A model generated the notes under the pieces. It was given only the letters and a program-made list of their open reading frames with translations. It made no database searches and was not told where the DNA came from. A stretch of DNA of 64,000 nt from Litoreibacter ascidiaceicola. Lineage in GTDB: Bacteria > Pseudomonadota > Alphaproteobacteria > Rhodobacterales > Rhodobacteraceae. The stretch is from assembly GCF_900129235.1 (NCBI RefSeq), contig NZ_FQUV01000006.1, positions 1 through 64,000 of the forward strand, written 5' to 3'. Positions within the stretch are counted from its first letter, which is position 1. Each line of letters begins with the position of its first letter. Made by a program: the position numbers and the translations under genes. Below, one piece after another: positions 262-42,680 of the stretch.

Positions 262-2277
262 TTACCTGCTACGCCAGGCCTGAGTACGGCCAAGAACTCC
301 GCGCGAGGCAATAAGATGGAATATCCGCGCGCCAGCATTTGTATAGAAAATCATCATCCCCATAGCTGCAGCCGGAGCGATATCACCTGCGTCGTCCATG
401 TTGAGAACCGCGATAGATGCGAGGGACGTTGATGGTGAATAGAGGAACACGACGGCCGAGACTGTCGTCATTGCGTTCACAAACAAGTAGATCGAAATAT
501 CTAGGATGGACGGCAGACAAACAGGCACAGTGACTCGGCCAAATAGTTTTAACGATGGTTGTTTTAACGACGCCGATACCGATTCAAATTCCCGGTCCAT
601 CTGCTGAAGCGCGGTTGTCGCAGTAAGGTGCGACACAGTGTAAAAGTGGGTTACAGAGCAAACGACAAGGATCGCCATTGTTCCGTAGATTATGTGTAGC
701 GGGTTATCGGGATTGTTGAAGAAGAAGATATAGGCAAGCCCCAGAACCATCCCTGGAATAGCCATTGGCAGCATTGCAAACATCTGAAATAGCGCACGCC
801 CGGTCTTAAAGCCGTTGGATTTCTCAACAAGATACGCCCCAAAAAAGATGATCGCAGTGCCTACAGTAGCCGTAAGCAAGCCCAGCTTGATCGAGTTGTA
901 ATATGAGCCCCAACCTCCACCGTCCATACGGTCAAATTGGAAGTTATTCAGGCTAAAGCTAAGGTCATACGGCCAGAATTTTACCAACGCGGCGAACTGG
1001 CACACGGCAAGAATACCGATGATAAATATGCCAACAAGGCTTGCATAGCCGAACAATATCCAATCGGCCTTTTTGTTTGGTTTTGGTTGATAAGGAACAG
1101 ACCTAGCCGATAGCAGCGCAACTTGTTTGCTCTGCACAAAGCGGTCGATTGCAAATGCAAGGATCGCTGGCAGAATGAGGACCACGGACACCACTGCACC
1201 CATCTCAAAATTCTGCTGGCCGATGACTTGTTTGTAGATATCTACGGCTAATACATTGAACTGTCCGCCAATAACTTTGGGCAGGCCAAAATCAGTAATG
1301 ACAAGGTTAAAGACCACAAAAGCCGCCGAGACCAAACCATATCGTGCACCTGGAATGGTCACAGTCCAAAAGGTCCGCCACGGCGTCGCACGCAGTGATG
1401 TGGCCGCCTCATAGAGCCGCCCATCTGAGATCGCTAAAGCCGTTGAAATGATCAAAAACGCATGTGGAAAGGTGAAGAACACTGATCCGATGACAATTCC
1501 AATCGGGCCGTAGATACTTGCACCAAACAGCATCTCTTTTAGAAACCCCTGATTACCAAACAGATACACCAGCGCAATGCCCGGCAACAGCGATGGGACG
1601 AGGATCGGAGCCATCGCAATCAGGCGGAACACGCCTTTGAAACGCATGCAGGAACGGCTCAGTGCATAGGCAAACCAAAAGGCCAGTGTGACAGTGATCA
1701 TCGTACTTATGGTTGCGATAAAGACGGAGTTCTTGATCGAATTCGAAAGGGCAGGCGTGCTAAAATAGTTTTTGAAATTCCCAAGGCCGGTTGATTTGAC
1801 CGGGCGGAGTTGAACGCGGCGAAAGGTATTGCTGTCCAATTCAACCCATTCGGTACTGTCGTTCAACGTTGATCCGACCAGAAACCGACCTTCGGCAGTT
1901 GTGTTGCGAAGACGATACTTGACCGGGCTGCGGAAACTAAAGTCGGGAAAGAATTGCGTCACGCCAACACGTCCATCTGATCCTGCGATCAGGTCGCTGT
2001 CGTCCAGCGCCTGAAGCTGGTCGTTCAAAAGCGCGAATGTAACGGCGTCGGAATAGAATGTTCCCGCTTGGTCACTTACCTGAACTTCGTAAGCTGACAG
2101 ATCGAATTGAAATGTCGAAAAGGATTTGGACAGCATGGCATAGAGTGGGAACACCATCGTGATGAGAAGGTAGAGGCCGATCACCATCATGCTGCCCCGC
2201 ATGATAAGGTCATCACGCGAGAGCTTTCCTTTTATGGTGGGGCCGGCGGGAAGGCTTTGCTGGGTCGCGTCGGTCAT
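262..2277 (-). CDS. ABC transporter permease, fused two-domain type, for 2-aminoethylphosphonate
   Basis: Inner-membrane channel of the phosphonate importer. The 671 residues hold two BPD_transp_1 halves in one chain. Each half carries an EAA-type loop: EAATSLRATPW near residue 290 and FESVSASLKQP near residue 565. These contact the ATPase. Between the first membrane helix (about 33-50) and the second lies a soluble stretch of about 120 residues, probably periplasmic, which is longer than usual. The start codon overlaps the ATPase stop (ATGA), so translation is coupled. AEP import is inferred from the phnWAY genes in the cluster and from the known fused permeases of putative AEP transporters (PhnU/PhnV-like). 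The exact substrate cannot be read from the sequence. Confidence 0.85.
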   Translation of the reverse strand: MTDATQQSLPAGPTIKGKLSRDDLIMRGSMMVIGLYLLITMVFPLYAMLSKSFSTFQFDLSAYEVQVSDQAGTFYSDAVTFALLNDQLQALDDSDLIAGSDGRVGVTQFFPDFSFRSPVKYRLRNTTAEGRFLVGSTLNDSTEWVELDSNTFRRVQLRPVKSTGLGNFKNYFSTPALSNSIKNSVFIATISTMITVTLAFWFAYALSRSCMRFKGVFRLIAMAPILVPSLLPGIALVYLFGNQGFLKEMLFGASIYGPIGIVIGSVFFTFPHAFLIISTALAISDGRLYEAATSLRATPWRTFWTVTIPGARYGLVSAAFVVFNLVITDFGLPKVIGGQFNVLAVDIYKQVIGQQNFEMGAVVSVVLILPAILAFAIDRFVQSKQVALLSARSVPYQPKPNKKADWILFGYASLVGIFIIGILAVCQFAALVKFWPYDLSFSLNNFQFDRMDGGGWGSYYNSIKLGLLTATVGTAIIFFGAYLVEKSNGFKTGRALFQMFAMLPMAIPGMVLGLAYIFFFNNPDNPLHIIYGTMAILVVCSVTHFYTVSHLTATTALQQMDREFESVSASLKQPSLKLFGRVTVPVCLPSILDISIYLFVNAMTTVSAVVFLYSPSTSLASIAVLNMDDAGDIAPAAAMGMMIFYTNAGARIFHLIASRGVLGRTQAWRSR

Positions 2278-3407
2278 TCCGCCGCCTCCGGCCGCTCAAA
2301 TGCCATCAATCTGTTCTTTGGAAGTTCAACGGTCATCTTGCCACCCTGTTCAAGGCTGAGTCTGCGCACAGCGTTGATAGAAAAGTCTGCAATCAACTCG
2401 CTGTTTCCAAAGCGCTCGTGATGCAATCTGCAACGCCAGAACGATCCGAGAAACTCCATTTCACCCACCACGACTTCAAGGGCGTTTTCCTCCGTTTCAA
2501 TAACGTCATCCGATCCCAGCACATGGGTTTCGTCCCCGTGTGGGATTACATCTTCGGGACGAATTGCGGCGATAATTGGATGGCCTTCAGCGAAATCATG
2601 CCCCAAAGATTGCATAGTTGCACTCCCAAAGCTGACTGCACCGCTTGGCCCAGCCAGGGCTGGAATCTGGTTCATTTCACCGATGAAGTCGGCCACGAAC
2701 AGTGTTTTGGGGGTGCTATAGATTTCAGTTGGGGTTCCAACCTGCTCAATCACCCCGTCTTTCATGACAACGATGCGGTCGGCCATCGCGAGGGCCTCTT
2801 CCTGATCATGCGTCACCATCACTGTCGTCACACCAAGTTGGCGTTGCAGTTCTTTGATCTCGTGACGCAAATAGACGCGCACTTTGGCATCAAGCGCCGA
2901 CAGGGGTTCGTCCAAAAGCAGTAAGCCGGGGTTGGTCGCGATCGCGCGCGCCAAAGCGATCCGCTGTTGTTGCCCTCCAGACAATTGTGCTGGGTACTTC
3001 TTGCTTTGATCGACCAGCCCCACCATGGTGAGAAGCTCGGACACCCGCGCCTTTATCTCAGGTTTTGAGCGTCCGGTGTTCTCCAATCCAAACGCCACAT
3101 TCTTTTCAATCGTTAGGTTCGGGAACAACGCATAAGATTGAAAGACAATCCCAAAATCACGTTCAGAAGGGGGCAGGTTTGACACGTCCTTGCCGCCCTG
3201 ATGCACACTGCCTTTGGTCTGCAGGTCCAGTCCCGCAATTGCGCGCAGCAGCGTTGTCTTGCCGCAGCCCGAAGGTCCAAGAAAGCAGATCAACTCACCC
3301 TCATAGATATCAAGCGAGACATCCTTGAGCGCGAGGAACTTTCCGAAAGCTTTCCAGAGGTTTTGAATTTTGAGATAGGGCTCTGATCCGTCAAGAGGCA
3401 AGGGCAA
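2274..3407 (-). CDS. ABC transporter ATP-binding protein for 2-aminoethylphosphonate
   Basis: Cytoplasmic ATPase that drives the importer. The 377 residues show Walker A GPSGCGKTT near residue 45, signature LSGGQQQR near 143, Walker B LLLLDEPLS near 160 and the switch histidine in MVTHDQEEAL. The C-terminal third is a TOBE-like domain (IRPEDV region), as in PotA/FbpC-type ATPases. It lies between the substrate-binding gene and the permease, in the same direction, and its stop overlaps the permease start. It matches the PhnT class of phosphonate transporter ATPases; the substrate assignment rests on context. Confidence 0.88.
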   Translation of the reverse strand: MPLPLDGSEPYLKIQNLWKAFGKFLALKDVSLDIYEGELICFLGPSGCGKTTLLRAIAGLDLQTKGSVHQGGKDVSNLPPSERDFGIVFQSYALFPNLTIEKNVAFGLENTGRSKPEIKARVSELLTMVGLVDQSKKYPAQLSGGQQQRIALARAIATNPGLLLLDEPLSALDAKVRVYLRHEIKELQRQLGVTTVMVTHDQEEALAMADRIVVMKDGVIEQVGTPTEIYSTPKTLFVADFIGEMNQIPALAGPSGAVSFGSATMQSLGHDFAEGHPIIAAIRPEDVIPHGDETHVLGSDDVIETEENALEVVVGEMEFLGSFWRCRLHHERFGNSELIADFSINAVRRLSLEQGGKMTVELPKNRLMAFERPEAAE

Positions 3408-3529: not shown

Positions 3530-4549
3530 TTACTTTGGATCAGACTTGCCGTCATAGCGGCCCGCCCATTCTTTTAGGATTGCAGCCCGATTGTTTGCTG
3601 CAAACTCAAAGTCGTTGTCGATCATCGCGTCCAACAGATTTGCTGGGAAGTGCTCAACCGGTTTGGCAATGCCAGGATATGCCACGACTGCATAGCCAAC
3701 ATTGTACATTTCGTTGGCTTCCTTGGTGATCGTGAAATCAAGCAGCTTCTGTGCGGCTTCCAGATCATCAGTGCCCGCGACAATGGCCGTGGCCTCCATG
3801 TCCCAGCCAACACCCTCGGAAGGGACGATGATTTCTAGAGGTGCACCGGCAGCTTTGGACTTGGCACCGCGGAAGGCAAAGGAAACGCCAATCGGGATTT
3901 CACCTGAGGCTGCTAGCTTACATGGTGCGGATCCTGAGTGCGTATACCGCGCGATGTTTTCATGAAGTCCATCCATGAAAGCCCAGCCGTCATCTTCACC
4001 GAATATCTGCAACCAGCTGGATACATCCAGAAATCCGGTGCCGGACGAAGCGGGGTTGGGCATGATAATATGGCCCTTGTATTGGGCGTCCGTAAGGTCT
4101 TTCCACGACGTCGGCGGGGTTAAGCCAAGCTTTTCTGCTTCGACAGTGTTATAACAGACCGACGCAACCCATGCGTCCATGCCAACCCACGCGGGCGTCT
4201 CGTCTTTATCTACAAACTTCGGATCGAGCTTTTCAACGCCAGCAGGCGCATAAGCCTCCAGCATGCCTTCGGATTTAAGCAGCAACAACGAAGTCGCGGC
4301 CAGTCCCCAAACCACGTCAGCTTGTGGATTATCACGTTCTGCTAGCAGCTTTGCGGTTATAACACCGGTTGAATCGCGTACCCAGTTGATTTTAATATCC
4401 GGGTGGATTGCATTAAAGGTCTCTGCGTAACGGGCCAGATCCTCGGCCTCGATTGCGGTATAAACTGTCAATTCAGCTTCTGCAAAAGCGGCTGTGGCGC
4501 TGATCGCCAAGGCTGCAACGCTTGTCATTGCTTTTTGAAAAATAGTCAT
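3530..4549 (-). CDS. Periplasmic 2-aminoethylphosphonate-binding protein
   Basis: Solute receptor of the importer, 339 residues. A Sec signal peptide (residues 1-23, cleavage after AFA) is followed by an extracellular-binding-protein family 1 fold like iron/AEP-binding proteins: LTVYTAIEAED at the start of the mature chain, NPASSGTGF near 168 and an AFRGAKS ligand loop near 230. A GGGAGT ribosome site lies upstream of the ATG. The 248 bases between this gene and the FAD/GcvT gene are AT-rich near 4600-4680 and could hold a separate promoter for the transporter genes; no operator is clear. AEP as ligand is inferred from the neighbouring genes. Confidence 0.85.
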   Translation of the reverse strand: MTIFQKAMTSVAALAISATAAFAEAELTVYTAIEAEDLARYAETFNAIHPDIKINWVRDSTGVITAKLLAERDNPQADVVWGLAATSLLLLKSEGMLEAYAPAGVEKLDPKFVDKDETPAWVGMDAWVASVCYNTVEAEKLGLTPPTSWKDLTDAQYKGHIIMPNPASSGTGFLDVSSWLQIFGEDDGWAFMDGLHENIARYTHSGSAPCKLAASGEIPIGVSFAFRGAKSKAAGAPLEIIVPSEGVGWDMEATAIVAGTDDLEAAQKLLDFTITKEANEMYNVGYAVVAYPGIAKPVEHFPANLLDAMIDNDFEFAANNRAAILKEWAGRYDGKSDPK

Positions 4550-4797: not shown

Positions 4798-7260
4798 TCA
4801 CCCATCCGCCCGGACCCGTTCTGATTTAGGATCATAGGGCGTGCGAAGATGCGCTTTGGCTGCGAAGCGCATCCCGGCCACATCAACTTCAAAGGAATGT
4901 GCCTTGATAAAATCAGCCTTCACCGGTTCGGTTGCATTGATCTCGCATAACGCAACAGCCGCGCCAAGTGTGTGTCCATATCCGGCCGAGCGCACTTCGC
5001 CGATTTCGACGCCGTCACACAAGACCGCTTCGCCACCCCAAAGTTGAACCATTTCATCTTCAACGACCAATTGAATGATCCGCTTGCTCAGGTGATTGGG
5101 ATCGGCTTTGGCAGCAACTAGTGCGTCCTTTCCAATGAATCCACTGGGCTTGTCAAAATCTACAGCAAAGCTGAGGCCCGCTTGCAAAGGTGTGATATCC
5201 GGCGTCAGTTCACGGCTCCAAGCGCGAAAGCCCTTTTCAAGACGCAAGCCATCAAGCGCATAATATCCTGCGTCAATAATACCGTGATCCTGTCCAGCCC
5301 GTTTCAGGTCTTCGTAGACCCCGACAGTAAATTCCACCGGAACGATCAGTTCCCAACCCAATTCACCCACGTATGTCATGCGGTTAGCCCAGACAGTGGC
5401 ATAGCCCAGATCAATTTTTTGCACAGTTCCAAACGGGAAAGCGGCATTTGACAAGTTGGTTTTGGTTAACTGCTGAAGTACTTGGCGTGACTTCGGCCCC
5501 ATGAGTGCCAGGACAGACCAGGCCGCCGTCACGTCCGTCAGAAAGACATGTGCATCTGGCGAGAAATTCTTGCCAATCCAATCAGCGTCCCGAACGGCTT
5601 GTGCTGATCCGGTGATCAACAGGAACTCCTGCTCTTTCAGTCGCAAAACAGTCAGGTCACTTTCGAACCCTCCGCGGGTATTCAGCAGGCCCGTGTAAAC
5701 GGTGCCACCGACCGCGACGTCGATATTGGCAGCACAAATTCTGTTGAGTTCCGTGCAAGCGTCACAGCCCTGAACCAGCAATTTGGCAAAGGAACTTTGG
5801 TCGAATACCGCAACATCTTCCCGTGTCGCCTTGTGTTCTGCGGCTACGGCATCGTGCCAATTCTGGCGGCCAAAGCTGTATTCGTTTTCAGGTGTTGTGC
5901 CTTCGGGTGCAAACCAGTTCGCCCGCTCCCACCCCATCTTGGAACCGAACACCGCATTTTTTGCTGCAAGCCGATCATAAAGTGCAGAACGGCGAAAGGG
6001 GCGTGCGGTGTCCAACTCCCGATTGGGCCAAGGCATTGCGTAATGCAGCCCCAGCGTTTCTTTGACTCGGTCATGCAGCCATGTCGGGTTATTGTTAAAA
6101 TCAGCAAAGCGGCGGATATCGACGGCAAAAAGATCTGACGTTGGCTCTCCGTGCACGATCCACTCAGCAAGGGCACGGCCTGCGCCACCCGCACTCGCGA
6201 TACCCATTGAGTTGAATCCGGCGCCAACAAAGAAATTCTTTAACTCTGGCGCTTCGCCAAGCAGGTAGTTGTTGTCGGGTGTAAAGCTTTCAGGGCCGTT
6301 GTAGAATTTGCGCACACCTGTGGTTTCCATTTCTGGAACCCGGATCAGGGCATTTTCGAGCAAGATTTCAAATTGCTCCCAGTCATCGGGCAACAACGAG
6401 AATTCAAATTTGTCAGGAATACCATCCATGCCCCAGGGCTTCGCCTCTGGCTCAAACCCGCCCATGACCAGCCCACCGGTTTCTTCTTTGAAATAGATAA
6501 AGCCATCGGGGTCGCGCAAAACCGGCAGGTCGGGATTAACGCCTTTCATGGTTTCGGTCACGATATACATATGCTCTGCGGAATGAAGCGGGACGTTCAC
6601 GCCACACATCTTGCCAAGGCTGCGCGCCCATTGGCCCGCACAATTCACCACGACTTCCGCTTCGATCCTGCCCTGATCTGTCTCGACTCCCGTTACCCGA
6701 CCGTCCTTTGTCAGAACATCTGTTACCTTGATCCCTTCGATCACCTTTGCGCCGCGCATTCTGGCACCTTTGGCAAGGGATTGGGTCAAATCAGTGGGGT
6801 TGGCCTTGCCGTCACCGGGCATCCATATGCCCCCTTTAAGGTCATCCACTTGCATGACGGGCCACTTGTCTTGCGCCTGCTGCGGGGTGAGTACATCAAC
6901 ATCGACACCTTGCGCGCGCGCTGCGGCCGCCGTGCGCATGAGCATCGTCATGCGATCTTCGGTACGGGCGACGGTGACAGACCCACATTGCATCCATCCC
7001 GTTGCAAGTTCGGTCTCTGCCTCAAGGTCGGCGTAGAGTTGTGTCGAATAGCGGATCAGATTCGTCATGGCGGGTTGGCTGCGCAGTTGACCGACCAATC
7101 CGGCGGCGTGCCATGTGGTTCCGCAACTCAACTGACCCTGTTCAAGCAGCACCACATCGTTGTGGCCCATTTTTGCCAGATGATAAGCAACGGAGCACCC
7201 GACGATGCCGCCGCCCACGATTACATATTGCGCTCTTTCGGGAAGTTCCGTTTTGGCCAT
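4798..7260 (-). CDS. FAD-dependent oxidase fused to a GcvT (aminomethyltransferase) domain
   Basis: Two-domain enzyme of about 820 residues. The first 400 are a DAO fold with dinucleotide motif VGGGIVGCSVAYHL near residue 13 and the conserved GTTWHAAGLVG. The second half is a folate-binding GcvT/GcvT_C fold (SVLALMGPKSR, GELGWELIVP, LDGLRLEKGFRAW). This is the layout of dimethylglycine and sarcosine dehydrogenases, which oxidise N-methyl amines and pass the carbon to tetrahydrofolate. Start at 7260 is chosen for a GGAGAG ribosome site and because VIVGGG then falls near the N-terminus. Its place between the AEP catabolic and transport genes suggests N-methylated aminophosphonates as substrates, for example N-methyl-AEP demethylation to feed PhnW. 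That substrate is inferred. Confidence 0.85.
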   Translation of the reverse strand: MAKTELPERAQYVIVGGGIVGCSVAYHLAKMGHNDVVLLEQGQLSCGTTWHAAGLVGQLRSQPAMTNLIRYSTQLYADLEAETELATGWMQCGSVTVARTEDRMTMLMRTAAAARAQGVDVDVLTPQQAQDKWPVMQVDDLKGGIWMPGDGKANPTDLTQSLAKGARMRGAKVIEGIKVTDVLTKDGRVTGVETDQGRIEAEVVVNCAGQWARSLGKMCGVNVPLHSAEHMYIVTETMKGVNPDLPVLRDPDGFIYFKEETGGLVMGGFEPEAKPWGMDGIPDKFEFSLLPDDWEQFEILLENALIRVPEMETTGVRKFYNGPESFTPDNNYLLGEAPELKNFFVGAGFNSMGIASAGGAGRALAEWIVHGEPTSDLFAVDIRRFADFNNNPTWLHDRVKETLGLHYAMPWPNRELDTARPFRRSALYDRLAAKNAVFGSKMGWERANWFAPEGTTPENEYSFGRQNWHDAVAAEHKATREDVAVFDQSSFAKLLVQGCDACTELNRICAANIDVAVGGTVYTGLLNTRGGFESDLTVLRLKEQEFLLITGSAQAVRDADWIGKNFSPDAHVFLTDVTAAWSVLALMGPKSRQVLQQLTKTNLSNAAFPFGTVQKIDLGYATVWANRMTYVGELGWELIVPVEFTVGVYEDLKRAGQDHGIIDAGYYALDGLRLEKGFRAWSRELTPDITPLQAGLSFAVDFDKPSGFIGKDALVAAKADPNHLSKRIIQLVVEDEMVQLWGGEAVLCDGVEIGEVRSAGYGHTLGAAVALCEINATEPVKADFIKAHSFEVDVAGMRFAAKAHLRTPYDPKSERVRADG

Positions 7261-7328
7261 GCCAACTCTCCAATGCAAATTCGCTTTGCATTAGATTGCG
7301 TTATTTGGCAAAACTTGGCAAACAAAAT

Positions 7329-8090
7329 CTACGCCTCGGAAGCGATATCAAGCCGATACCCTCGTTGCGATATCGCGCGGCGGATATCATCATCTGGCGC
7401 AATATCCGTCACGATACGCGTCGGTTTTGGAGGCGCATTAAAAACCACATGCCCGACGACACCAAATTTTTGGCTATCGGCCACCATAATCGGATTTTGT
7501 GATTGGGACAGCATCAGGTGGCGCATGCTGGACGCCTCGCGGCTGAAGTCGGTCAAAAACGCTGACGGGCTAAGGCCACCCGCGCTCACGACGGCAAAAT
7601 CCGCGCGGTATCGCGCGACGCTTTCCAACGCCTCAACACCCTGTACGGCCATTTCGGTCACATCGACTTTGCCACCAATGATTACCAGCTCGGCCGTTGC
7701 TTGGGCGATCACCTCAGCAACTTTAAGATCATTGGTATAGACGATCAGGCCGCTATGATGTGTCAGGGCTTTGGCCAAGGCGAGCACGGACGACCCGTTG
7801 TCCAAGAATAGCGAAGCTCCGTTTGGAATTTGCGACGCTAGATATTGTGCGATCAGGAACTTACCCTGAATATTCAGCTTGGACCTGCGGGTTATGGGCA
7901 GTTCGCTGGTGCGGATCTTGGTCGCGCCGCCGCGTATCTTTTCAAGCTTTTTATGTTGGGCCAAAAGCTCGATGTCTTTGCGAACCGTTTCACGCGACAC
8001 GCCAAGCTGTTCTGTCAGTGCCCGGATAGAAACCGTCGGCTTTTGGTCAAGCCGCTCAAGAATTATCGCGTGTCGCTCTGTCGCCAACAT
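7329..8090 (-). CDS. DeoR-family transcriptional repressor
   Basis: DNA-binding regulator of 253 residues. The N-terminal winged helix (RHAIILERLDQ then VSIRALTEQLGVSRETVRKDI) is the DeoR signature. The C-terminal DeoRC sugar-phosphate-sensor fold shows FLDNGSS near 95, YTNDLKVA near 120 and VVSAGGLS near 168. It sits within the leftward run between the Na/Pi-type transporter and the FAD/GcvT gene. It probably controls the downstream part of the island in response to a phosphorylated or phosphonylated intermediate; ligand and operator are not visible. Confidence 0.88.
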   Translation of the reverse strand: MLATERHAIILERLDQKPTVSIRALTEQLGVSRETVRKDIELLAQHKKLEKIRGGATKIRTSELPITRRSKLNIQGKFLIAQYLASQIPNGASLFLDNGSSVLALAKALTHHSGLIVYTNDLKVAEVIAQATAELVIIGGKVDVTEMAVQGVEALESVARYRADFAVVSAGGLSPSAFLTDFSREASSMRHLMLSQSQNPIMVADSQKFGVVGHVVFNAPPKPTRIVTDIAPDDDIRRAISQRGYRLDIASEA

Positions 8091-8136: not shown

Positions 8137-9819
8137 CTAACGCTGACGCACGTCTAGGTCGTCGTAATCCTGCTCAATCAGGCGTGTTTCAAGCAACTGG
8201 CCGCCCCTGTGAAGGAGCGGGTAAGCAGCCGAGGCTATGTGGCTGTTAAAGTCACGTAACGCGCCGACGGTTTCAAGATGAATGTCGCTGGAATCGAAAC
8301 TGATCTGGACCCCTTCGCTCAGACGCTTCAAATGGCGCTTGCGGCTTTTACGCTCCAGCCGCGCCATTTCCTGCTTTTCCTCCAACAGCAAGCGTGCACT
8401 TTCAAGATCATCGGAAACGAGAAGGTTAGAGGCCAGCAGCAAGTTCGCTTTGGTCCGCTCATGCATATTTGTAATTTCTGAGGCCCCGTCTTGGGAAAAC
8501 CGGATACCCTTCTCGTACATCTCTTTCGCGAGTGGGATCATGCGTTTGGCCACAATGTCCCCCGCAGTTTCCACTGCGATCGCATACTCGGTGATTTCGC
8601 GAACCCGTTTATTGTCCTGTTTAGAAAGGTCCGTGTTTTGCAGCGCAGCTGCATAACGCCGAACATCGTCCAATGCCGTGTTCACGAAAGCATCTTGCGA
8701 AAGAACCATACGGGCGCGGTCAGGATCATATTTTGTATAGATATCCATAACCGGAGTTACCATGGTCTCGACCAACTGGATCATGCGCAACGCTTCGCGC
8801 TTCAGGTTCGTAATCGCCAGATGCGGCTTGTCCAGAACGGCTTCGTCAAGCGTTGTCTTATAGAGTGGGGATTGCTCTTCTGCGGTGGGAGGGTCGTCAG
8901 GCAGAAATTTCAAAAATGGACGTTCCAGCCTGTGCGCAAAGATCAATACCATCAACAGAAGCGCGTTAAACAATATGTGTGTGTTGATTAACGTCTGTGC
9001 GGAGGTCTCAGATCCGAAATATTGCAAAAGGCCAAATTTGTTGATCACATACAGGGCGATTAGGGCACCGCTTCCGCGCACGGCCAAATTCGCCACTGGA
9101 ACCCGCCTCGCCGCATTTTTCATGCCCCTGCTGAGCCACACAGGAATGATAGCGCTGCCCAGATTGGCACCAAGCACCAAGGACACCCCAGCAGCAACCG
9201 GGATCGCGCCAATCGAGACCAGCGTCACACACATCAGGATGACCGCAACACTCGAGTGCATCAAGAAAGCCAATAAGGCCCCGACGATAAATGCCGTCAG
9301 GAAATCCGTCGCAAGGTAGTCTGCAATTACTGGCAAGAAAGTGCTGTCGCGGATGGGGTCCATCGTTTCTCGAAGGTACCGGAGCGAAATCAGAATAAAG
9401 GCAATGCCAAGTATTATTCGGCCCGCTTGGCGAAGCTTGCGTTGCTCTGACTTGACAAAAAGACCGCCGCCCACCGCCAGTAGAACTGGGACCAACCACG
9501 CCAGATCGAAAGAGAACACCTGAATCAAAAGTGCTGATCCAAGGTCTGCCCCCAACACGACGGACAAGCCGACACCGAACGAAATGGCACCGGTCGCGGA
9601 AAATCCGGCGACCAACAACGCGACCGCAGCGGAGCTTTGCAGGATAATGGCAAGCACAAGGCCCGTTGCACCGGCGCTCACGCGGTTGCGATTCTCGGTG
9701 ACGACACGCTTGAAGGACGACCCAAAAGCGCGCTCAATACCGGTCCTCACCATGCGTACCGCAAACAGCAGCAGCATTGTGGCGCCCATCAACTCAACAA
9801 TGAATGAGATAATGATCAT
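8137..9819 (-). CDS. Na+/phosphate cotransporter-type membrane protein with PhoU-like tail
   Basis: About 560-residue membrane protein. The first 310 residues form two inverted Na_Pi_cotrans repeats with the paired motifs QSSAAVALLVAGF and HSSVAVILMCV, which mark the NptA/YjbB family. The last 230 residues are helical and resemble PhoU (LKREALRMIQLVETM, ITEYAIAVETAGDI). Start at 9819 (MIIISFIVELMG) places the first helix at the N-terminus and abuts the previous gene's stop. Bacterial members such as YjbB can export phosphate, so in this cluster it may expel excess phosphate released by PhnA. Import is equally possible from sequence. Confidence 0.82.
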   Translation of the reverse strand: MIIISFIVELMGATMLLLFAVRMVRTGIERAFGSSFKRVVTENRNRVSAGATGLVLAIILQSSAAVALLVAGFSATGAISFGVGLSVVLGADLGSALLIQVFSFDLAWLVPVLLAVGGGLFVKSEQRKLRQAGRIILGIAFILISLRYLRETMDPIRDSTFLPVIADYLATDFLTAFIVGALLAFLMHSSVAVILMCVTLVSIGAIPVAAGVSLVLGANLGSAIIPVWLSRGMKNAARRVPVANLAVRGSGALIALYVINKFGLLQYFGSETSAQTLINTHILFNALLLMVLIFAHRLERPFLKFLPDDPPTAEEQSPLYKTTLDEAVLDKPHLAITNLKREALRMIQLVETMVTPVMDIYTKYDPDRARMVLSQDAFVNTALDDVRRYAAALQNTDLSKQDNKRVREITEYAIAVETAGDIVAKRMIPLAKEMYEKGIRFSQDGASEITNMHERTKANLLLASNLLVSDDLESARLLLEEKQEMARLERKSRKRHLKRLSEGVQISFDSSDIHLETVGALRDFNSHIASAAYPLLHRGGQLLETRLIEQDYDDLDVRQR

Positions 9820-9821
9820 TG

Positions 9822-10673
9822 TTAGACATTCACCCCAGCGATTGTCGCGATGCCCAGGCCCACGATTAGAGCAGCGAGCAAACGGTCGCGGCGGGGGCCT
9901 TCGGAGAACCAAAACACGCCCATCAGCGCAGCAAAGATTACGGATGTTTCACGCAAAGCTGAAACGACACCCAGCGGGGCTTGCGTTTTTGCGTATAGAA
10001 CCAGCCCGTAAGCCGCCCCAGAAACGACCCCGCCAAAAAGGCCAATCGCAATGGCGCGGCCGGACATATTCTGAAGTCTCTCCCATCGGCTTGTGAAAAC
10101 GAATACCACGACGAAGAGTTCGGACACGAACAACCAACCGATATAGCCCGTCGGACTGCCCGAGACGCGGACCCCAACGCCATCCACGATGGAATAGCTG
10201 GCGATAACAACGGCGACACCAACGGCTGCGACCAGCCCGGCACGGGAAATGCCAGACGTAAATACGCCGCGCGCCAAAAGCAGGATGCCTGCAGAGACCG
10301 CGAAAACGCCCAGCCAAACAACCAAAGGCAGCTCTTCGCCCACCCAAATTAATGCGCCAACGGCAATCAACACGGGAGAAAGACCACGCGCGATAGGATA
10401 AACGATGCTTAAATCTCCGGTCCGGTACGCGATGCTCAACAACGCGTAATATCCCCAGTGAATGACCGTCGAGGCAACAATATATGGAATTGCGGCTGAG
10501 GATGGGGCCGCGCTAAACGCCAAAAGCGCAAATCCCGGGATAACATGCCCCGCAGCGACAAGGCCCAGCACGATCGTCCTGTCACCTGCGCCTTTTACGA
10601 TGGCATTCCATAATGCGTGAAGAAACGCAGCGAAGACGACAATGAGGAAGATGCTCAGGCTCAAGATTTGCAA
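9822..10673 (-). CDS. EamA/DMT-family permease
   Basis: A 283-residue inner-membrane protein with ten predicted helices in two five-helix repeats, the usual drug/metabolite transporter length. The typical YPIARGLSPVLIAVGALIWVGE segment falls at the end of the first repeat. Its start overlaps the end of the PbfA-like gene by 13 bases, so both come from one message. Substrate is unknown; in this cluster an organophosphonate or amine seems likely, for uptake or export. Confidence 0.85.
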   Translation of the reverse strand: MQILSLSIFLIVVFAAFLHALWNAIVKGAGDRTIVLGLVAAGHVIPGFALLAFSAAPSSAAIPYIVASTVIHWGYYALLSIAYRTGDLSIVYPIARGLSPVLIAVGALIWVGEELPLVVWLGVFAVSAGILLLARGVFTSGISRAGLVAAVGVAVVIASYSIVDGVGVRVSGSPTGYIGWLFVSELFVVVFVFTSRWERLQNMSGRAIAIGLFGGVVSGAAYGLVLYAKTQAPLGVVSALRETSVIFAALMGVFWFSEGPRRDRLLAALIVGLGIATIAGVNV

Positions 10674-12016
10674 CCCTGTACCGCTTTTTCGACAATGCCA
10701 AGCGCCTCGTCCAACTCAGTGCGGGAAATCGTCAACGGCGGTGAAAGCGTTAGCACGTTTCCTGCGCTGATCTTGAAACTCAGACCGTTCGAAAGGCAGG
10801 AATAATAGATCTGTTCAGCCAGTTCAGGCGCCGGCGTGCGGGTATCTTGGGCGGATACGATCTCAATGCCAAACATCAAGCCTCGCCCCCTGATATCGCC
10901 GACATTGGGATGGGTACTCAAGGTTTCACGCAAACGATCTTGTGCGTGGGTGCCGAGCGTGGCGGCACATTCGACGAGCCCTTCGTCCTCGATGATATCC
11001 AGTGTCGTTAAGGCGGCCCGTGCGGTCACCGGGTTTTTCTCGTGAGTGTAATGCCCGATTGCAAAGTCACCTGCTACATCCAGATAACGTCGCGCAACAA
11101 CTGCGGCAATCGGCAAAATACCCCCGCCAAGCGCTTTTCCGAGCGTAACAATATCAGGGATAAAGTCGTCATGCTGAAACGCAAACATCTCGCCTGTTTT
11201 GCCTAGGCCCGTCGGAATTTCATCCATGATCAGCAATGTGCCGTGACGGTGGCAGGCCTCTTGAACTGATTTCCAATATCCCGCCGGAGGCACCACAGGA
11301 ACCGCGCGCATCGGCTCGGCAATGACAGCGGCCACATCCCCTTCGCGTTGCAGGACGTAGTCGACCATCTTGGCGCAAGCCAGCCCGCAGTTTTCCGGCC
11401 CCGAATGACCGTAGGCGCAGTGATAGCAATGGAATGGTGCGACGTGTTCTGCACCCGGAAGCAGTGGGCCGGCAATATGGCTGCGGAAAGTGGCCTCGCC
11501 ACCGACCGACGCTGCACCAAACCCCGCGCCATGAAAGGAATCCCAAAAGCTCAGCGTTTTGAATCTTCCTGTCGCGGCCCGTGCCAAGCGCAGAGCAACT
11601 TCATTCGCGTCAGATCCACCGGTGGTGAATAGCGTTTTGCCCAGATTTCCCGGCGTGATCTTCTCCAGCCGTTCGGCCAGCGCGACGGAGACGTCATTGG
11701 TAAAGCGCCGTGGAGAGAAGGAAAGTTGGTCCAGCTGATCCTTGATCGCGGCAACCAAACGAGGGTGACCGTAGCCGATATGATGAACTGAATTGCCATG
11801 GAAATCCATGAAGCGTCGCCCGGCCACATCTTCGATCCAGATGCCTTCCGCCTTTGCGATCGTGGAGACGCAAGGGCTGGATAAACTCTGATGAAGAAAC
11901 GCGTCGGCGTCACGTTGCAACAAGCCGATGGCCGCAGCATCGGTTTCTTTTGATGACCAATCCTTGCGGGCTGCTGATGTGTTCGGCTCACCTTCTGTGT
12001 GGATCGTCGCGGGCAT
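10661..12016 (-). CDS. pbfA: PLP enzyme of the class-III aminotransferase fold, probable (R)-1-hydroxy-2-aminoethylphosphonate ammonia-lyase
   Basis: A 451-residue fold-type I PLP protein. It shows FTTGGSDANEVALRLAR (phosphate-binding loop, near 126), LLIMDEIPTGLGKTG (PLP-pyridine aspartate) and TLGKALGGGILP (Schiff-base lysine near 288). It also contains a Cys/His-rich stretch FHCYHCAYGH near 193. It lies directly after phnY in an AEP cluster. That is the reported position of PbfA, an ammonia-lyase related to class-III transaminases which turns R-1-hydroxy-AEP into phosphonoacetaldehyde, the substrate of PhnY. The fold is certain. Lyase activity is inferred from context and overall resemblance; a true aminotransferase remains possible. 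Confidence 0.75.
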   Translation of the reverse strand: MPATIHTEGEPNTSAARKDWSSKETDAAAIGLLQRDADAFLHQSLSSPCVSTIAKAEGIWIEDVAGRRFMDFHGNSVHHIGYGHPRLVAAIKDQLDQLSFSPRRFTNDVSVALAERLEKITPGNLGKTLFTTGGSDANEVALRLARAATGRFKTLSFWDSFHGAGFGAASVGGEATFRSHIAGPLLPGAEHVAPFHCYHCAYGHSGPENCGLACAKMVDYVLQREGDVAAVIAEPMRAVPVVPPAGYWKSVQEACHRHGTLLIMDEIPTGLGKTGEMFAFQHDDFIPDIVTLGKALGGGILPIAAVVARRYLDVAGDFAIGHYTHEKNPVTARAALTTLDIIEDEGLVECAATLGTHAQDRLRETLSTHPNVGDIRGRGLMFGIEIVSAQDTRTPAPELAEQIYYSCLSNGLSFKISAGNVLTLSPPLTISRTELDEALGIVEKAVQGCKS

Positions 12017-12076: not shown

Positions 12077-13534
12077 CTAGCCCGGCCAAGGCAGAGAGTA
12101 TGTCTTGACGTTTGTGAAGAATTTCATCGCTTCAATTACGCCTTCCTTCACGCCGTTGCCGCTGTCCTTGATGCCGCCAAACGGAGACATTTCGATGCGG
12201 TAGCCCGGTTGTTCCCAAATATTGCAAGTTCCCACATCCAGACCGTTGATATAGGCAATCGCACGGTTCAGGTCGTTCGTACAAACACCTGAGGAAAGCC
12301 CGAAATCGGTCGAGTTCGAGATCGCCATAACCTCTTCGTCATTGTCGGGCACCCGCACGATGGGGATGATCGGACCAAAGGTCTCTTCCATCACCAATTC
12401 GCTATCATGGGGGACGTGGTCCACCACGATGGGTGGCAATAACGCGCCCTGACGCTTTGGATGATAGAGAATTTTAGCACCTTGTTTTCCAGCCATGTAA
12501 ACACGGTTTTCAAACAACTCTGCCGCTTGGGCATGGATCACACAGCCCAGTTCCGTTTCAGGATCCTGCGGGTCGCCAAACTTGATCTTCTTGGCCTTCG
12601 CCAGCACCATTGGAACAAATTTGTCCGCCACAGACTCTTGCACAAGAATGCGCTTAATCGCTGTGCACCGCTGGCCGGAGTTTCCAGTCGCGCCAGCCAC
12701 CGCAATTGTCGCGGCTTTCTCAAGGTCAGCGTCGCTCAGATCGCTGCAAACAATCAAAGGGTCATTACCGCCCAGCTCTAGCGCTTGGCGCTTGTAGCCA
12801 GCCTTACTTGCAATAATCTTGCCCACTGGCACGCCGCCGGTGAAGGTGATGATATCAATGTTTTCATTGGTGATCATCTCGTCACCGATGTCCTGCGGCA
12901 TCCCCGTGACAATCTGAAACATCTCTGGCGGCAAACCCGCCTCATAGAGAATATCCGCAAGCGCAATTGCTGTCAGTGGTGTCAATTCGGTAGGCTTGCA
13001 GACCATGCAGTTATTGGTTGCAATGGACGGTGCAATCTTATGGCTCACCATATTAAGCGGGTGGTTAAACGGAGTGATCGCACTGATCGCTTTCACCGGC
13101 TCGCGGGTGGTGTAGATCTTGCGTTCCTTGCCGTTGTGGGTCAGGTCGCAAGAGAAAATCTCGCCGTCATCGTTCATCGCCTGACTGGCGGCAAATTGAT
13201 AAACGTCCTGCGCGCGCTTGGTCTCGTAAATCGCGTGTTGATGGCAGATGCCAAGCTCAAGAGTCAGCCACTTGGCCAGATATTCCCGCCTCTCACCAAT
13301 CAGCTCACCTGCGCGTTGCAGGATTTGACTGCGCTCATAGCGACTGAGCTTAGACTTGTAATTCGCTGCAATTTCAAAGGCTTTTGCAGCATGTTCAGCT
13401 TTGCCTGCCGGAACTGTGCCAATCACTTCGTCGGTGTACGGATACTTCACCTCTACCACATCATCGGTAAAGACGATTTCCCCGCCGATGCGCATGCCTT
13501 CATGGCGAATGTCGATTTTATCCATGGCGGTCAT
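12077..13534 (-). CDS. phnY: Phosphonoacetaldehyde dehydrogenase
   Basis: NAD(P)-dependent aldehyde dehydrogenase of 485 residues, cytoplasmic. It oxidises phosphonoacetaldehyde made by PhnW to phosphonoacetate for PhnA. Visible motifs are ITPFNHPLN near 153, the general-base LELGGNDP near 252 and the catalytic cysteine in [12 protein letters not shown] near 286. Its ATG overlaps the phnA stop (ATGA); a second in-frame ATG follows three codons later. The assignment to PhnY rather than a generic aldehyde dehydrogenase rests on its position directly after phnW-phnA. Confidence 0.92.
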
Positions 13535-14790
13535 GCTTCTACCTTTTCCATCGCTGCGGCTTGAGCCGCATAAAAGAATGCATCAAAATTTCGCAAAACG
13601 GGAGCCGACGGCAGATCAAGCACACGGTTGCAGATAAACGGCACCTCTTGCTCTGTCAGGCCACCATGGCTGCGCAATGGTTCGTTTAGCGCTGCGAGGT
13701 CGTGGCGGTGGGCAGAGGTCCCAATTGTCATATTCTCGGTTGAGATCATCACGATGTCACCAATGCGGTCGCCGGGCAATTCGAAACGACGGACAGCTTC
13801 GGCCTTGTCCATCACTTCAAGTATCTCGGGACGGGCGGCAAGACGGGCGATGATGTCGGCTTGGTCTGTTCCATCTGGCAAGTAAGCCGTGCCAAAACCG
13901 CCAAGCGCACCATGATGCACAACATAAGGGTCGGTGATTGGCAGGATCACGCGGGCCGCAGCCTCACCTAACCATTCATCAAGCAAATCTTGCACGTAAA
14001 TAACCTGTGGGTCACCGTTCGCATCGTGCTTGGGCTTCATGCCGTGATCCGCAGTCACAACGATTGCCGCGCCCATTGCATCCAGTTCAGTCAGGTATTT
14101 GTCGAACATCTTGTAGAAAGACTTCGCTTCGGCCTGATCGGGGGAATACTTGTGCTGAACGTAATCTGTCGTGGTCAGATACATTACGTCGGGGTTCCAC
14201 TCTTTCAACAGCTTAACGCCGGCAGCAAAAACAAATTCGGAAAGTTCCGCCGAATAAACTTCGGGCTGTGCCATCCCAAGCCATTTACTTGCGGCATCCT
14301 GACCATGTTCAGCTTTGGTCGACGTGTCAGACTTTTCCGCCGAATAGCACATCGCGCGATCTTCATCGAACTTCAGGCCGGCCCCCAAAAGCGCCCGCAG
14401 CTTGTCCTTGGCGGTGACGACGGCCACCCGAGCACCGGCCTCGTAGAACTTTGAGAACACTGTTGGCGCCCGTAAGAAACGGACATCGTTCATCATCACT
14501 TCTTCGCCTGTTTCCGGCTCATACAAATAGTTGCCGCAAATGCCATGCACAGCAGGTGGACGGCCAGTTGCAATCGACAGATTGTTAGGGTTGGTGAAGG
14601 ATGGAATGACAGAGTGAGCAAGCCGATCTGTGCCGGTCTCACGCATGCGTTTGAGCGTTGGCATTAGGCCGTCCGCGATTGCTTTTGTCAGATATTCCGG
14701 TTCACACCCGTCCAGGCAGATAGCAATGGCACAGGTTTTAGGCGTAGCATACGTGCGATCATTCGCGACAACAGTTTTGGTAATTGGCAT
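13531..14790 (-). CDS. phnA: Phosphonoacetate hydrolase
   Basis: Zinc-dependent C-P bond hydrolase, phosphonoacetate to acetate plus phosphate, the last step of the PhnW-PhnY-PhnA route. The 419 residues belong to the alkaline phosphatase superfamily. Metal and catalytic sites are visible: [10 protein letters not shown] (Asp), [14 protein letters not shown] (nucleophilic Thr), [12 protein letters not shown] (Asp and His), [10 protein letters not shown] (Asp-His) and [12 protein letters not shown] (His). It lies 17 bases after phnW. This route releases phosphate whether or not the cell is phosphate-starved, which fits the LysR-type control seen here. Confidence 0.95.
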
Positions 14791-14807: not shown

Positions 14808-15995
14808 CTAAGCAGCTAGTTTTTTGCGTTCATCAAGTGCCGCTTGGGGCGGTGAGGCATCATTTACGCCCATCTCAGCGAGGGCTTGAGCAGCAGCAGC
14901 GACCACCTTGCGCATGACGTGCTCATCCATCTGGCCGATACAACCAATACGGAAGCTATCAACAACGGTTAGTTTTCCTGGGTAAATGATAAATCCGCGA
15001 TCTCTCATCAACTCATAAAACTTATGGAAGTCAAACGCAGGGCTGGCTGGGCAGAAGAATGTAACAATGATCGGGCTCAACCATCGATCTGCAAGCAAGG
15101 TTTCGAACCCTAGGTCGCGCATGCCCTCAACCATCACGTCGCGGTTACGCGCATAACGCGCACCTCGTCCCGCAACGCTTCCCTCTTTCTCGTGAGCATC
15201 AAGCGCGACAAGAAAGGCCGCAACCACGTGGGTTGGTGGCGTAAATCGCCATTGGCCCGTTTTTTCCATCGCGGCCCATTGTGCATAGACATCCAGAGAC
15301 AAAGAGTGACTGTTGCCTTTTGCAGCTTCGAGTTCATCTGTTCGGGCTATCACAAAGCCGAAACCCGGAACACCTTCGATGCACTTATTGGCCGACGACA
15401 CCATCGCCGTGTACTTGGTTCGCTCGACATCTAGTGGAACGGCCCCAAAGGCAGACATGCTGTCGATCAAAACCTTCCGTCCAGCCGCGTGGACGACATC
15501 TGCAATCTCTTCAACAGGGTTCAGGATGCCAGAGCTCGTTTCACAGTGAATGATCAATACATGGGTGATTGCAGGATCTTCGGCGAGGATGGCAGCAACT
15601 TCGTCACCACGTGGCGGCAGATAGTCACCTTTGTTCAGCAATTTGTAGGCGCGGCCAAGGCATTCCATTGTTTGCGCGGCACGCAGCCCGTAAGCACCGT
15701 TCGCCAAAACCAGCACTTTGCCATCTTTGGGCACAAATGATCCCAACATTGCTTCAACGCAATAGGATCCTGATCCCTGAATTGGAACGCAATCGTACTC
15801 TGACTTGCCGGGGCCCAAAAGGGCAAGCAGTTGTGTCCGCATCTTGTGCGTCATTTCACGAAATTCATTATCCCAGCTACCCCAATCGCGGAGCATGGCC
15901 TCTTTCACCGCGTAGGATGTCGTCAATGGCCCGGGTGTAAGAAGATAGGGCTCTCCCAGTCTTGGTGGCTCAATATCGCTCGTTTTGGTACCCAT
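14808..15995 (-). CDS. phnW: 2-aminoethylphosphonate:pyruvate aminotransferase
   Basis: First enzyme of AEP breakdown: it moves the amino group of AEP to pyruvate, giving phosphonoacetaldehyde and alanine. Class-V aminotransferase of about 395 residues with LLTPGPLTTS at the N-terminus, VLIDSMSAFGAVP (PLP-ring Asp) and the Schiff-base lysine in SANKCIEGVPG. An in-frame ATG lies 27 bases upstream (16022), but 15995 has the better ribosome site (AAGGAG, six bases away) and starts just before the conserved region. It is the first gene of the leftward operon and faces a LysR gene. Confidence 0.94.
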   Translation of the reverse strand: MGTKTSDIEPPRLGEPYLLTPGPLTTSYAVKEAMLRDWGSWDNEFREMTHKMRTQLLALLGPGKSEYDCVPIQGSGSYCVEAMLGSFVPKDGKVLVLANGAYGLRAAQTMECLGRAYKLLNKGDYLPPRGDEVAAILAEDPAITHVLIIHCETSSGILNPVEEIADVVHAAGRKVLIDSMSAFGAVPLDVERTKYTAMVSSANKCIEGVPGFGFVIARTDELEAAKGNSHSLSLDVYAQWAAMEKTGQWRFTPPTHVVAAFLVALDAHEKEGSVAGRGARYARNRDVMVEGMRDLGFETLLADRWLSPIIVTFFCPASPAFDFHKFYELMRDRGFIIYPGKLTVVDSFRIGCIGQMDEHVMRKVVAAAAQALAEMGVNDASPPQAALDERKKLAA

Positions 15996-16133
15996 TCCAA
16001 GCTCCTTGGATTTCCATGCCATACCCTTTGTCTAGAGAGGAGTGCACCATATGGAAAATTGTTAATTGCGATGGTATCAAAAGGTGTGCTTATAGGTGGA
16101 GCCAGTAAAAATTTGAAACTTAAGGGGTGATCA
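15996..16133. promoter_or_regulatory. Divergent control region between phnW and its LysR regulator
   Basis: This 138-base AT-rich stretch separates the leftward phnW operon from the rightward lysR gene. That is the classic layout in which a LysR protein binds between the two promoters, represses itself and activates the catabolic operon. I could not pick a T-N11-A operator with confidence. The lysR start has an AAGGGG ribosome site. Confidence 0.55.
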
Positions 16134-16979
16134 ATGCGGTACAGCCAGATACGAGCATTCCATTATGTCGCTATCAGTGGAGGGTTTTCACGTGCTGCTG
16201 AGGCCTTATCGCTCACCCAGCCGGCAGTTTCAGAACAGGTCAGAAAATTGGAAAGCGAGTATGACGTTTTGCTTTTTAACCGCAATCGCAAGCAAGTCAC
16301 TCTAACCTCTGCGGGTGAGCGGCTCTTGCTGGCGACCAAACAGTTTTTTGAAGTTGAACAACAGATTTCTGATGTGCTGTCTGAGAACCGAACTGCGTTA
16401 GAAGGGACTCTGCGAATAATCGCTGATAGCGCCTTTCATCTCACGCACCGCCTCAAGGTTTTTCGTTCCAAGCATCCCAAGGTACTTGTTTCTGTTCAAA
16501 CGGGTAACACCGCGGACATCCTGACGGCATTGCGCAATTATGACGCTGAGATTGGTTTGGTTGGCAGCTTGAATCCGGGACCCGACATGGAAGTCATCAG
16601 TTTGGGTACGTTCCAAATCGTCGCTTTCGCGTCTAAAGAATTCATGAAAGATCCAACGGCAACAATATCTATTAGGGAATTGTCAAAGTACCCATTAATT
16701 TTTCGTGAGAAAGGATCGAAAACGCGGCAAAAGTTAGAGGAAGAGGGTTTGCGCCAAGGGGTCTTGCTACAACCCACTTTTGAAGTTGAGGGCCGTGAAG
16801 CTGTACAAGAGATTGTCGCTGCAGGTGCAGGGATAGGATTTGTCTCGGAAGCTGAACTCGGACGCGACGAGCGCTTAATAACCTTACAGATAGATTGCCC
16901 GCAATTGATGATGGCCGAATCGTTGATCCATCTGAAACAACGGAGTGATGTGCGGCTGATAAGGGCGTTTATGGGCTAA
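16134..16979 (+). CDS. LysR-family regulator of the phosphonate operon
   Basis: A 281-residue LysR-type activator. The N-terminal winged helix (YSQIRAFHYVAISGGFSRAAEALSLTQPAVSEQ) is followed by a periplasmic-binding-protein-like effector domain from about residue 90. It is divergent from phnW, so it probably activates phnWAY in response to AEP or a degradation product, which allows phosphonate use even when phosphate is ample. Effector identity is inferred. It is the last intact gene before the right-hand IS6 remnant. Confidence 0.9.
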   Translation: MRYSQIRAFHYVAISGGFSRAAEALSLTQPAVSEQVRKLESEYDVLLFNRNRKQVTLTSAGERLLLATKQFFEVEQQISDVLSENRTALEGTLRIIADSAFHLTHRLKVFRSKHPKVLVSVQTGNTADILTALRNYDAEIGLVGSLNPGPDMEVISLGTFQIVAFASKEFMKDPTATISIRELSKYPLIFREKGSKTRQKLEEEGLRQGVLLQPTFEVEGREAVQEIVAAGAGIGFVSEAELGRDERLITLQIDCPQLMMAESLIHLKQRSDVRLIRAFMG

Positions 16980-19586: not shown

Positions 19587-19908
19587 GGACAGGTCACCTG
19601 GATTAAATTGTGAGAGACATAGCCAATCCAAGTGAGTGCAAATGTCAGCAGACCCCCCAGTCTCTTTCAAACGCAATCGCGGGCCAGCAGCAGCCTTTGA
19701 GTGATTCATTTCGTTAAGCGTTTCTTAACCAGTATTGCGGTCAATCGAGGGCTTGATCAGGGTATGAAAGCGACCGAAATGTGATCGAACTATGTCAGCA
19801 GGTTTCGGCATGAACACGCGTAAGAAAAGACTATCCTTGGATGGGAAAAATTACGCATAAACATTTGTAAGGGTGAGATTTTTTCGCGTCACTCTGCGCG
19901 CGACGATA
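19587..19908. other. Intergenic region between the capsule operon and the RTX gene
   Basis: These 322 bases contain no convincing gene. They lie downstream of the capsule operon and upstream of the RTX start, so the RTX promoter should be here. I see no strong terminator hairpin or known operator. Confidence 0.5.
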
Positions 19909-42248: not shown

Positions 42249-42680
42249 TCATGAAAGTATAAAATATCTAACAACAACGGATATTAGGAACATGGCGTTA
42301 GCAATCAAGAGGCACATGGTCGCCAGTGATCCAAGGTCCTTTGCATCGCGCGCAAACTCCTCCCAATCTGCGGTCAAGTGGTCTACCAGACATTCGATCG
42401 CCGTGTTCAGAGCTTCAACCGCCACAAGGCCGAAGAACAAGACGAATTGAATACAGTAATCCCCAAAGGTGGCCCCTGCGATGCCAAGAAGCACTATGCT
42501 GGCAGCCAATGCAAACACGATATGCCGAAACGCCGTTTCTTGCCATAACCTCCGAAGGCCACCGATTGAATAGCCTGCCGCCGCAAAAACATGGGCGATG
42601 CCGGTGATGCGTTCAGGTTTTACCCGACGAGGTTCAGATATAGCTTTCAATTTTGAGCAATCTTTTGATGATCTTTGCAA
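42249..42680 (-). CDS. dgkA: Diacylglycerol kinase, DgkA type
   Basis: Small integral-membrane kinase, 143 residues, which phosphorylates diacylglycerol to phosphatidate. The hallmark VEALNTAIECLVDHL lies near 87-101, with three membrane helices (about 52-70, 75-95, 118-138). Its start lies 34 bases inside the end of eptA. EptA takes phosphoethanolamine from phosphatidylethanolamine and leaves diacylglycerol, so DgkA next door recycles that by-product. Confidence 0.92.
   Translation of the reverse strand: MQRSSKDCSKLKAISEPRRVKPERITGIAHVFAAAGYSIGGLRRLWQETAFRHIVFALAASIVLLGIAGATFGDYCIQFVLFFGLVAVEALNTAIECLVDHLTADWEEFARDAKDLGSLATMCLLIANAMFLISVVVRYFILS

Follow-up and report, generated by a model that had tools for sequence, protein, structure and literature searches.

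A FAD-GcvT fusion gene lies between phn catabolic and phn transport genes

The window, by which we mean the whole 64,000-nucleotide stretch of Litoreibacter ascidiaceicola DNA analysed here (contig NZ_FQUV01000006.1, positions 1 to 64,000), contains a run of same-strand genes in the order phnW-phnA-phnY-pbfA-EamA-Na/Pi-DeoR-fusion-phnS2-phnT2-phnU2, with a LysR gene divergent from phnW. The features of this locus are as follows.

262..2277, minus strand: phnU2, 2-aminoethylphosphonate (AEP) ABC transporter permease (TIGR03262, above cut-off)
2274..3407, minus strand: phnT2, AEP ABC transporter ATPase (TIGR03265, above cut-off)
3530..4549, minus strand: phnS2, putative AEP-binding protein (TIGR03261, above cut-off)
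4798..7260, minus strand: FAD-GcvT fusion coding sequence, 820 aa, candidate N-methyl-aminophosphonate demethylase
7329..8090, minus strand: DeoR/GlpR-family regulator (Pfam), directly upstream of the fusion
8137..9834 (longer start at 9912), minus strand: Na/Pi cotransporter-like gene (tblastn matches in relatives at places annotated as Na/Pi cotransporter)
9822..10673, minus strand: EamA-type transporter-like gene (tblastn matches in relatives; EamA is annotated in the same type of cluster)
10661..12016, minus strand: pbfA (NF049939, 662 bits against a cut-off of 525)
12077..13534, minus strand: phnY, phosphonoacetaldehyde dehydrogenase (TIGR03250, above cut-off)
13531..14790, minus strand: phnA, phosphonoacetate hydrolase (TIGR02335, above cut-off)
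14808..16022, minus strand: phnW, AEP-pyruvate transaminase (NF010006/TIGR02326, above cut-off)
16134..16979, plus strand: LysR regulator of the AEP-catabolism type (TIGR03339, 284.8 bits, below the cut-off of 341.1)

The original prediction had placed the fusion between phn catabolic genes (phnW-phnA-phnY-pbfA) and phn transport genes (phnS2-phnT2-phnU2), and the curated NCBIfam cut-offs bear out this placement. Three same-strand genes that it left unmentioned, which are EamA-like, Na/Pi cotransporter-like and DeoR/GlpR, lie between pbfA and the fusion; the EamA-like product gave no Pfam match at 1e-15. The accompanying claim that glycine-betaine genes are absent also held in a Pfam scan that covered 29 of the larger proteins encoded in the window. 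Elsewhere in the window, positions 17580-19709 encode a repeat-rich protein with many GGxGxD-like stretches that appears RTX-like by eye and is adjoined by polysaccharide-type genes extending to 29099, and positions 42647-44314 encode an EptA/EptB-type phosphoethanolamine transferase (Pfam PF08019, PF00884).

The fusion is read on the minus strand from an ATG at 7260 to a stop at 4798, with a GGAG stretch resembling a ribosome-binding site 5' of the ATG and an alternative, earlier TTG at 7278. Its product combines four Pfam domains in one chain, each above its cut-off, which confirms the architecture of the dimethylglycine/sarcosine dehydrogenase (DMGDH/SarDH) type that had been claimed for it.

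6160..7227, minus strand: DAO (FAD) domain, PF01266, residues 12-367, 255.6 bits
5986..6153, minus strand: FAO_M linker domain, PF16350, residues 370-425, 74.2 bits
5167..5982, minus strand: GCV_T folate-binding domain, PF01571, residues 427-698, 251.4 bits
4831..5085, minus strand: GCV_T_C barrel, PF08669, residues 726-810, 53.8 bits

The best-matching named relative, among the best 80 of 269, is from Litoreibacter meonggei at 95% identity. Against the trimethylamine N-oxide demethylase family NF053776, the fusion scored 159 bits, far from the cut-off of 1100.

Catalytic and folate-site residues are conserved in the fusion clade

We compared the fusion with the dimethylglycine dehydrogenases and oxidase of known structure (DMGDH of rat, 4p9s, and human, 5l46; DMGO of Arthrobacter globiformis, 1pj5), with which it shares the four domains, the fold, the flavin His, the His/Tyr dyad and the folate-site acid. 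His51 aligns with the flavin-bearing His in the TWHAAGL motif of DMGDH (His91 in the human enzyme), and His230 and Tyr256 align with the catalytic dyad His225/Tyr259 of DMGO in the alignment to 4p9s and 1pj5. Asp535 aligns with Asp552 of DMGO, which we take to be a functionally important folate-site residue. All four residues are invariant in 35/35 rows of the fusion clade. An AlphaFold model of the fusion, computed without ligand, was of moderate confidence (pLDDT 72.5) and weak near some segments of the FAD domain. Its best structural matches were DMGDH, DMGO and related folate enzymes (Z 43-47), with DMGDH and DMGO matching along almost the full chain; the matches include a D552A structure with tetrahydrofolate (THF). 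The roles of the flavin His and the His/Tyr dyad in DMGDH and DMGO are described in the available part of PMC5082570. By alignment with these enzymes, the flavin of the fusion would be linked covalently at His51, and conservation of the putative folate site favours the N-methyl carbon as the one that is oxidised.

The fusion differs from DMGDH and DMGO in that identity is only 29-34% in structural alignments, in its location within AEP-degradation clusters and in the residues at positions Arg60 and Lys258, where the known enzymes carry others. Arg60 and Lys258, which could hold a phosphonate, are common to the sister clade. We set aside Arg60 as a phosphonate-specific residue, as it is also common to paralogues and present in 4/5 rows of PbfC, a single-domain flavoprotein of AEP clusters that is discussed below. 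Among the positively charged residues near the N-terminal domain, Lys152 is the only one specific to the fusion clade.

phn genes accompany the fusion across families and gene orders

An alignment of the fusion and six orthologues served to scan 84,980 species for relatives, of which the best 80 of 269 were kept. These 80 relatives, which are 66-95% identical to the fusion, were picked by sequence alone, and their loci were cut at 10 kb. At least one core phn gene (phnW, phnA, phnY, pbfA, phnS2 or phnU2) lies near the fusion in 71 of the 80, with phnW in 56 loci, phnA in 56, phnY in 51, phnS2 in 45, phnU2 in 38 and pbfA in 27. The gap between the fusion and the phn genes has a median of 2.2 kb and is at most 3 kb in 61 of the 71 linked loci. 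No phn gene was found in nine loci. In four of them (L045, L106, L107 and L114) the contig is short or truncated, and in the other five (L050, L056, L097, L101 and L103) the sequence extends 10 kb from the fusion in one direction or both. Gene order varies: in some Rhodobacterales the catabolic and transport genes enclose the fusion, in Mesorhizobium it adjoins a divergent LysR gene with NaPi and phnW, and in Shinella and Ensifer it follows phnU2. One deep branch, L163 (61% identity), has as neighbours PsrA (TIGR03405, above cut-off) and a phosphonate-binding protein of the PhnD type, which form an independent set of phosphonate neighbours, and it also carries phnA, phnY, pbfA and phnW. Because phnW accompanies phnYA also where there is no fusion, its position by phnA in 57 of the 63 phnA-bearing loci (the other six lying at contig ends) serves only as a consistency check on AEP as the product.

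Genome samples gave the same picture. In a family sample of 248 genomes searched at E<=1e-270, nine genomes had matches, of which seven showed 75-100% identity and the remaining two 50-52%, and phnA scored above cut-off in 34. phnA was present in all seven orthologue genomes and in neither genome of the 50-52% relatives; the corresponding hypergeometric P of ~5e-7 overstates independence, as the genomes are related. The fusion lies within ~11 kb of phnA in six of the seven orthologues, and the seventh, on a small contig, adjoins phnS2T2U2. In a class sample of 385 genomes, 47 had matches at the same threshold and 44 had phnA. With clade membership read from a 73-fusion tree, in which the wider clade has SH-aLRT support of 94, we found phnA in 11/11 genomes of the fusion clade, Litoreibacter included, versus 12/22 in the sister clade. 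Genomes with phnA are thus enriched in the sister clade too, yet phn genes stand alongside its fusions in only 3/23 rows. The original prediction would have failed without co-occurrence with phosphonate genes, and such co-occurrence is present in 71/80 loci and, for phnA, in 7/7 and 11/11 genomes. As these counts are far above chance, we rejected a chance neighbourhood.

The linkage also bears on whether this could be a dimethylglycine or sarcosine dehydrogenase of the ordinary kind, located here by chance, for example to handle betaine from trimethyl-AEP. The identical architecture, the 12 loci that carry a GbdR-like regulator and a BCCT transporter of the betaine type near the fusion in L056 speak for such an enzyme, which we nevertheless consider very unlikely given that phn linkage spans families and gene orders. 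In addition, the Litoreibacter genome gave no match for a TmpB/PhnZ-type HD protein (TIGR03276, E<=1e-15), and on this ground we rejected a TmpAB-betaine link in that genome; among the 21 genomes searched, 12 had a TIGR03276 match at this threshold, none of them above cut-off.

The paralogues weigh against the same explanation. The 3.74-Mb Litoreibacter genome encodes ten full-length FAD-GcvT fusions including the target, of which the nearest paralogue is 49% identical, and one paralogue groups with rat DMGDH (support 87/76 in a FAD-domain tree), so that betaine breakdown need not depend on the target fusion. By tblastn, no phn catabolic gene was found in the nine paralogue neighbourhoods (L037-L042), where L037 gave a general ABC ATPase match only, or near the 50-52% relatives L035 and L036, which indicates that phn linkage is a property of the fusion's clade and not of the architecture. 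One paralogue (L007, G000:C7:25718-28120) contains an internal TAG, which reflects either a decayed gene or a sequencing error. The phn neighbourhoods of Aminobacter, Shinella and Ensifer contain another such fusion, 42-43% identical to the target and no more than ~10 kb from the first (L061, L063, L064, L084, L087, L102 and L113).

In Sinorhizobium meliloti 1021, the fusion gene is on pSymB, and in the two S. meliloti pSymB loci (L126 and L129) it is flanked by taurine/sulfoacetaldehyde genes and phn genes. This position between the two gene sets would fit a sulfonate analogue such as N-methyltaurine as substrate, which we regard as most improbable: among four annotated fusion neighbourhoods, sulfonate genes occur in Sinorhizobium only, and phn genes occur in 4/4.

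Other neighbours were noted. A PehA-like phosphonate/sulfate ester hydrolase lies near the fusion in four loci (L055:8213-9742, L056:7534-9057, L046 and L054); the two that were scored reached 434-454 bits, below the cut-off of 900, and such hydrolases may free phosphonates from their esters. Rhizobiales-like phn DNA also turned up under the title Bacillus subtilis SK6B4 (L094), an assembly that has probably been mislabelled or contaminated. Folate-pathway genes were not seen to recur beside the fusion: a glyA probe matched in 0/80 loci, and a DHFR-like gene occurred in 5/80, all Aminobacter. We therefore dropped both as neighbours in support of a folate role.

The fusion is distinct from characterised PbfC

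Related FAD enzymes are known to act on N-methyl-AEP, a compound that the available part of PMC10590968 describes as frequent in nature. According to the same source, PbfC, PbfD1 and PbfD2 convert it to phosphonoacetaldehyde and methylamine, which cuts the other C-N bond, and the flavin of PbfC/PbfD comes off on denaturation. PbfC of Azospirillum sp. B510 corresponds to WP_012976454, which we assigned by position and accession numbering and which lies on pAB510a near phnX, phnW and pbfA. Like the fusion, it has a PF01266-type domain, a location in AEP clusters and the same proposed substrate. Unlike the fusion, it is a protein of ~415 aa with a single DAO domain, without GcvT, and it is 30% identical to the fusion over 406 columns. 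In a FAD-domain tree, five PbfC rows (Azospirillum and four homologues) split from all 33 fusion rows, DMGDH and DMGO included, with support of 100/100. These rows carry R, K or Q at the position of the flavin His (R in Azospirillum) and S at that of the catalytic His. Given the GcvT domain, the residue differences and the separate clade, we rejected the view that the fusion is simply the characterised PbfC.

The name has nonetheless been applied more widely, as 'pbfC' is listed for Mesorhizobium ciceri, Shinella zoogloeoides and others in a FEBS J 2025 table (PMC12366243, in the part available). In M. ciceri WSM1271, the best genome-wide match to Azospirillum PbfC is the fusion in the phn cluster, which is also the only DAO protein in the 22-kb locus. 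The published label thus appears already to cover the fusion, with the domain difference undiscussed in the available part of that paper. In the literature searched, as far as its available parts go, no phosphonate cluster is described as encoding a GcvT or folate domain, but Table S1 of PMC10590968 may list fusions.

The shared name raises the question of a shared reaction, in which the fusion would oxidise N-methyl-AEP at the ethylphosphonate side to give phosphonoacetaldehyde and methylamine, and its GcvT domain would be idle or put to another use. The same kind of gene cluster, the tabulated label (PMC12366243, in part) and the M. ciceri match are consistent with that reaction. We consider it unlikely, since characterised PbfC is single-domain, has R and S in place of the flavin and catalytic His and belongs to a clade apart (100/100), and since invariant folate residues would be odd for an idle domain.

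PbfD1, which corresponds to TIGR03364 (HpnW), is likewise a FAD amine oxidoreductase of AEP clusters, but the fusion scores 81.9 bits against that family's cut-off of 285.1. The fusion and PbfD1 occur together in none of the family-sample genomes, where a mere 0.2 would be expected by chance.

A precedent for two routes from one N-methyl amine is found with N-methylaminobutyrate, which, in the available part of PMC6122326, is demethylated by the SarDH-like Mabo with covalent FAD and releases methylamine through Mao with non-covalent flavin. This pair parallels a demethylase with covalent FAD versus a methylamine-releasing oxidase, although its substrate is a carboxylate and not a phosphonate and Mabo is likened here by its description in that source.

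A DeoR/GlpR regulator is associated with the fusion gene

In 73/80 loci, the fusion has a homologue of the DeoR/GlpR regulator directly upstream, at a distance of 0.6-1.7 kb. In the Litoreibacter window, we identified two repeats between the regulator and the fusion.

7305..7321, minus strand: direct repeat TTGCCAAgttTTGCCAA, a candidate operator for DeoR and the sole motif match in the window
7272..7292, minus strand: 8-bp inverted repeat just 5' of the fusion start codon, kept in L043 and not general

The motif TTGCMAAN(2-5)WTGCMAA has its sole window match upstream of the fusion (0.06 expected), and the motif is found again directly upstream of the fusion in 19/80 loci, mostly Rhodobacterales, and in 0 shuffled controls. 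It is plausible that this repeat is the operator of the adjacent DeoR protein. A general inverted-repeat operator was set aside, as arms of at least 8 bp occur in only 4/81 upstream regions. Near the DeoR-fusion pair, 12 Rhizobiales loci carry a GbdR-like AraC regulator of the choline type (e.g., L084:7882-8973).

Proposed function of the fusion

At slightly better than even probability, and judging from architecture, conserved residues and phn linkage, we propose that the fusion is a flavoenzyme of the DMGDH type whose reaction is the oxidative N-demethylation of an N-methylated AEP, with N-methyl-AEP the most likely substrate. Considered separately, an aminophosphonate substrate is likely, folate-linked demethylation is probable, and N-methyl-AEP as the main substrate is our best guess. 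The original prediction had read the gene as an aminophosphonate demethylase that would widen the range of usable phosphonates. The demethylase reading gains from the phn linkage and from a folate domain that looks active; the widening is not new in itself, because oxidation of N-methyl-AEP by the related FAD enzymes PbfC and PbfD has been published.

A variant of this proposal is that the substrate is N-methylated 1-hydroxy-AEP or N,N-dimethyl-AEP, whose product would feed PbfA or PhnW. It draws on the presence of pbfA in 27/80 loci, a PbfF-like dehydrogenase in 13 loci and the dimethyl substrate that DMGDH normally takes (PMC5082570, in part). We think these substrates quite unlikely, as 44 of the 71 phn-linked loci lack pbfA, albeit in loci cut at 10 kb, and as N-methyl-AEP is the form reported to be frequent (PMC10590968, in part).

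For demethylation of N-methyl-AEP, we infer the following scheme, in which substrate, bond broken, products, covalent flavin, electron acceptor and regulation are all predicted. The N-methylated amine would be taken up via PhnSTU2, and covalent FAD would take a hydride from the N-methyl group, aided by His230 and Tyr256. The resulting iminium would be tunnelled to the C-terminal GcvT domain, where THF near Asp535 would capture the carbon as 5,10-methylene-THF. The AEP product would then pass to PhnW, followed by PhnY and PhnA. The neighbouring DeoR/GlpR protein probably controls the fusion gene.

Taken together, we tentatively suggest, at somewhat less than even probability, that what goes under the name 'pbfC' in Rhizobiales and Rhodobacterales does not encode a PbfC; its product would be a convergent, folate-dependent N-demethylase of the DMGDH type that converts N-methyl-AEP to AEP and passes the methyl carbon to the one-carbon pool. 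If so, the pbfC label would span two reactions with different by-products, methylamine versus methylene-THF, and surveys that apply this label to fusions would wrongly predict methylamine as the product and overlook a one-carbon supply from phosphonates. Breakdown of N-methyl-AEP would then proceed by two chemically distinct routes, and a whole clade of 'FAD-dependent oxidoreductase' proteins in rhizobia and marine Rhodobacterales would gain a function. Furthermore, in rhizobia and marine roseobacters, phosphonate use and folate metabolism would be connected.
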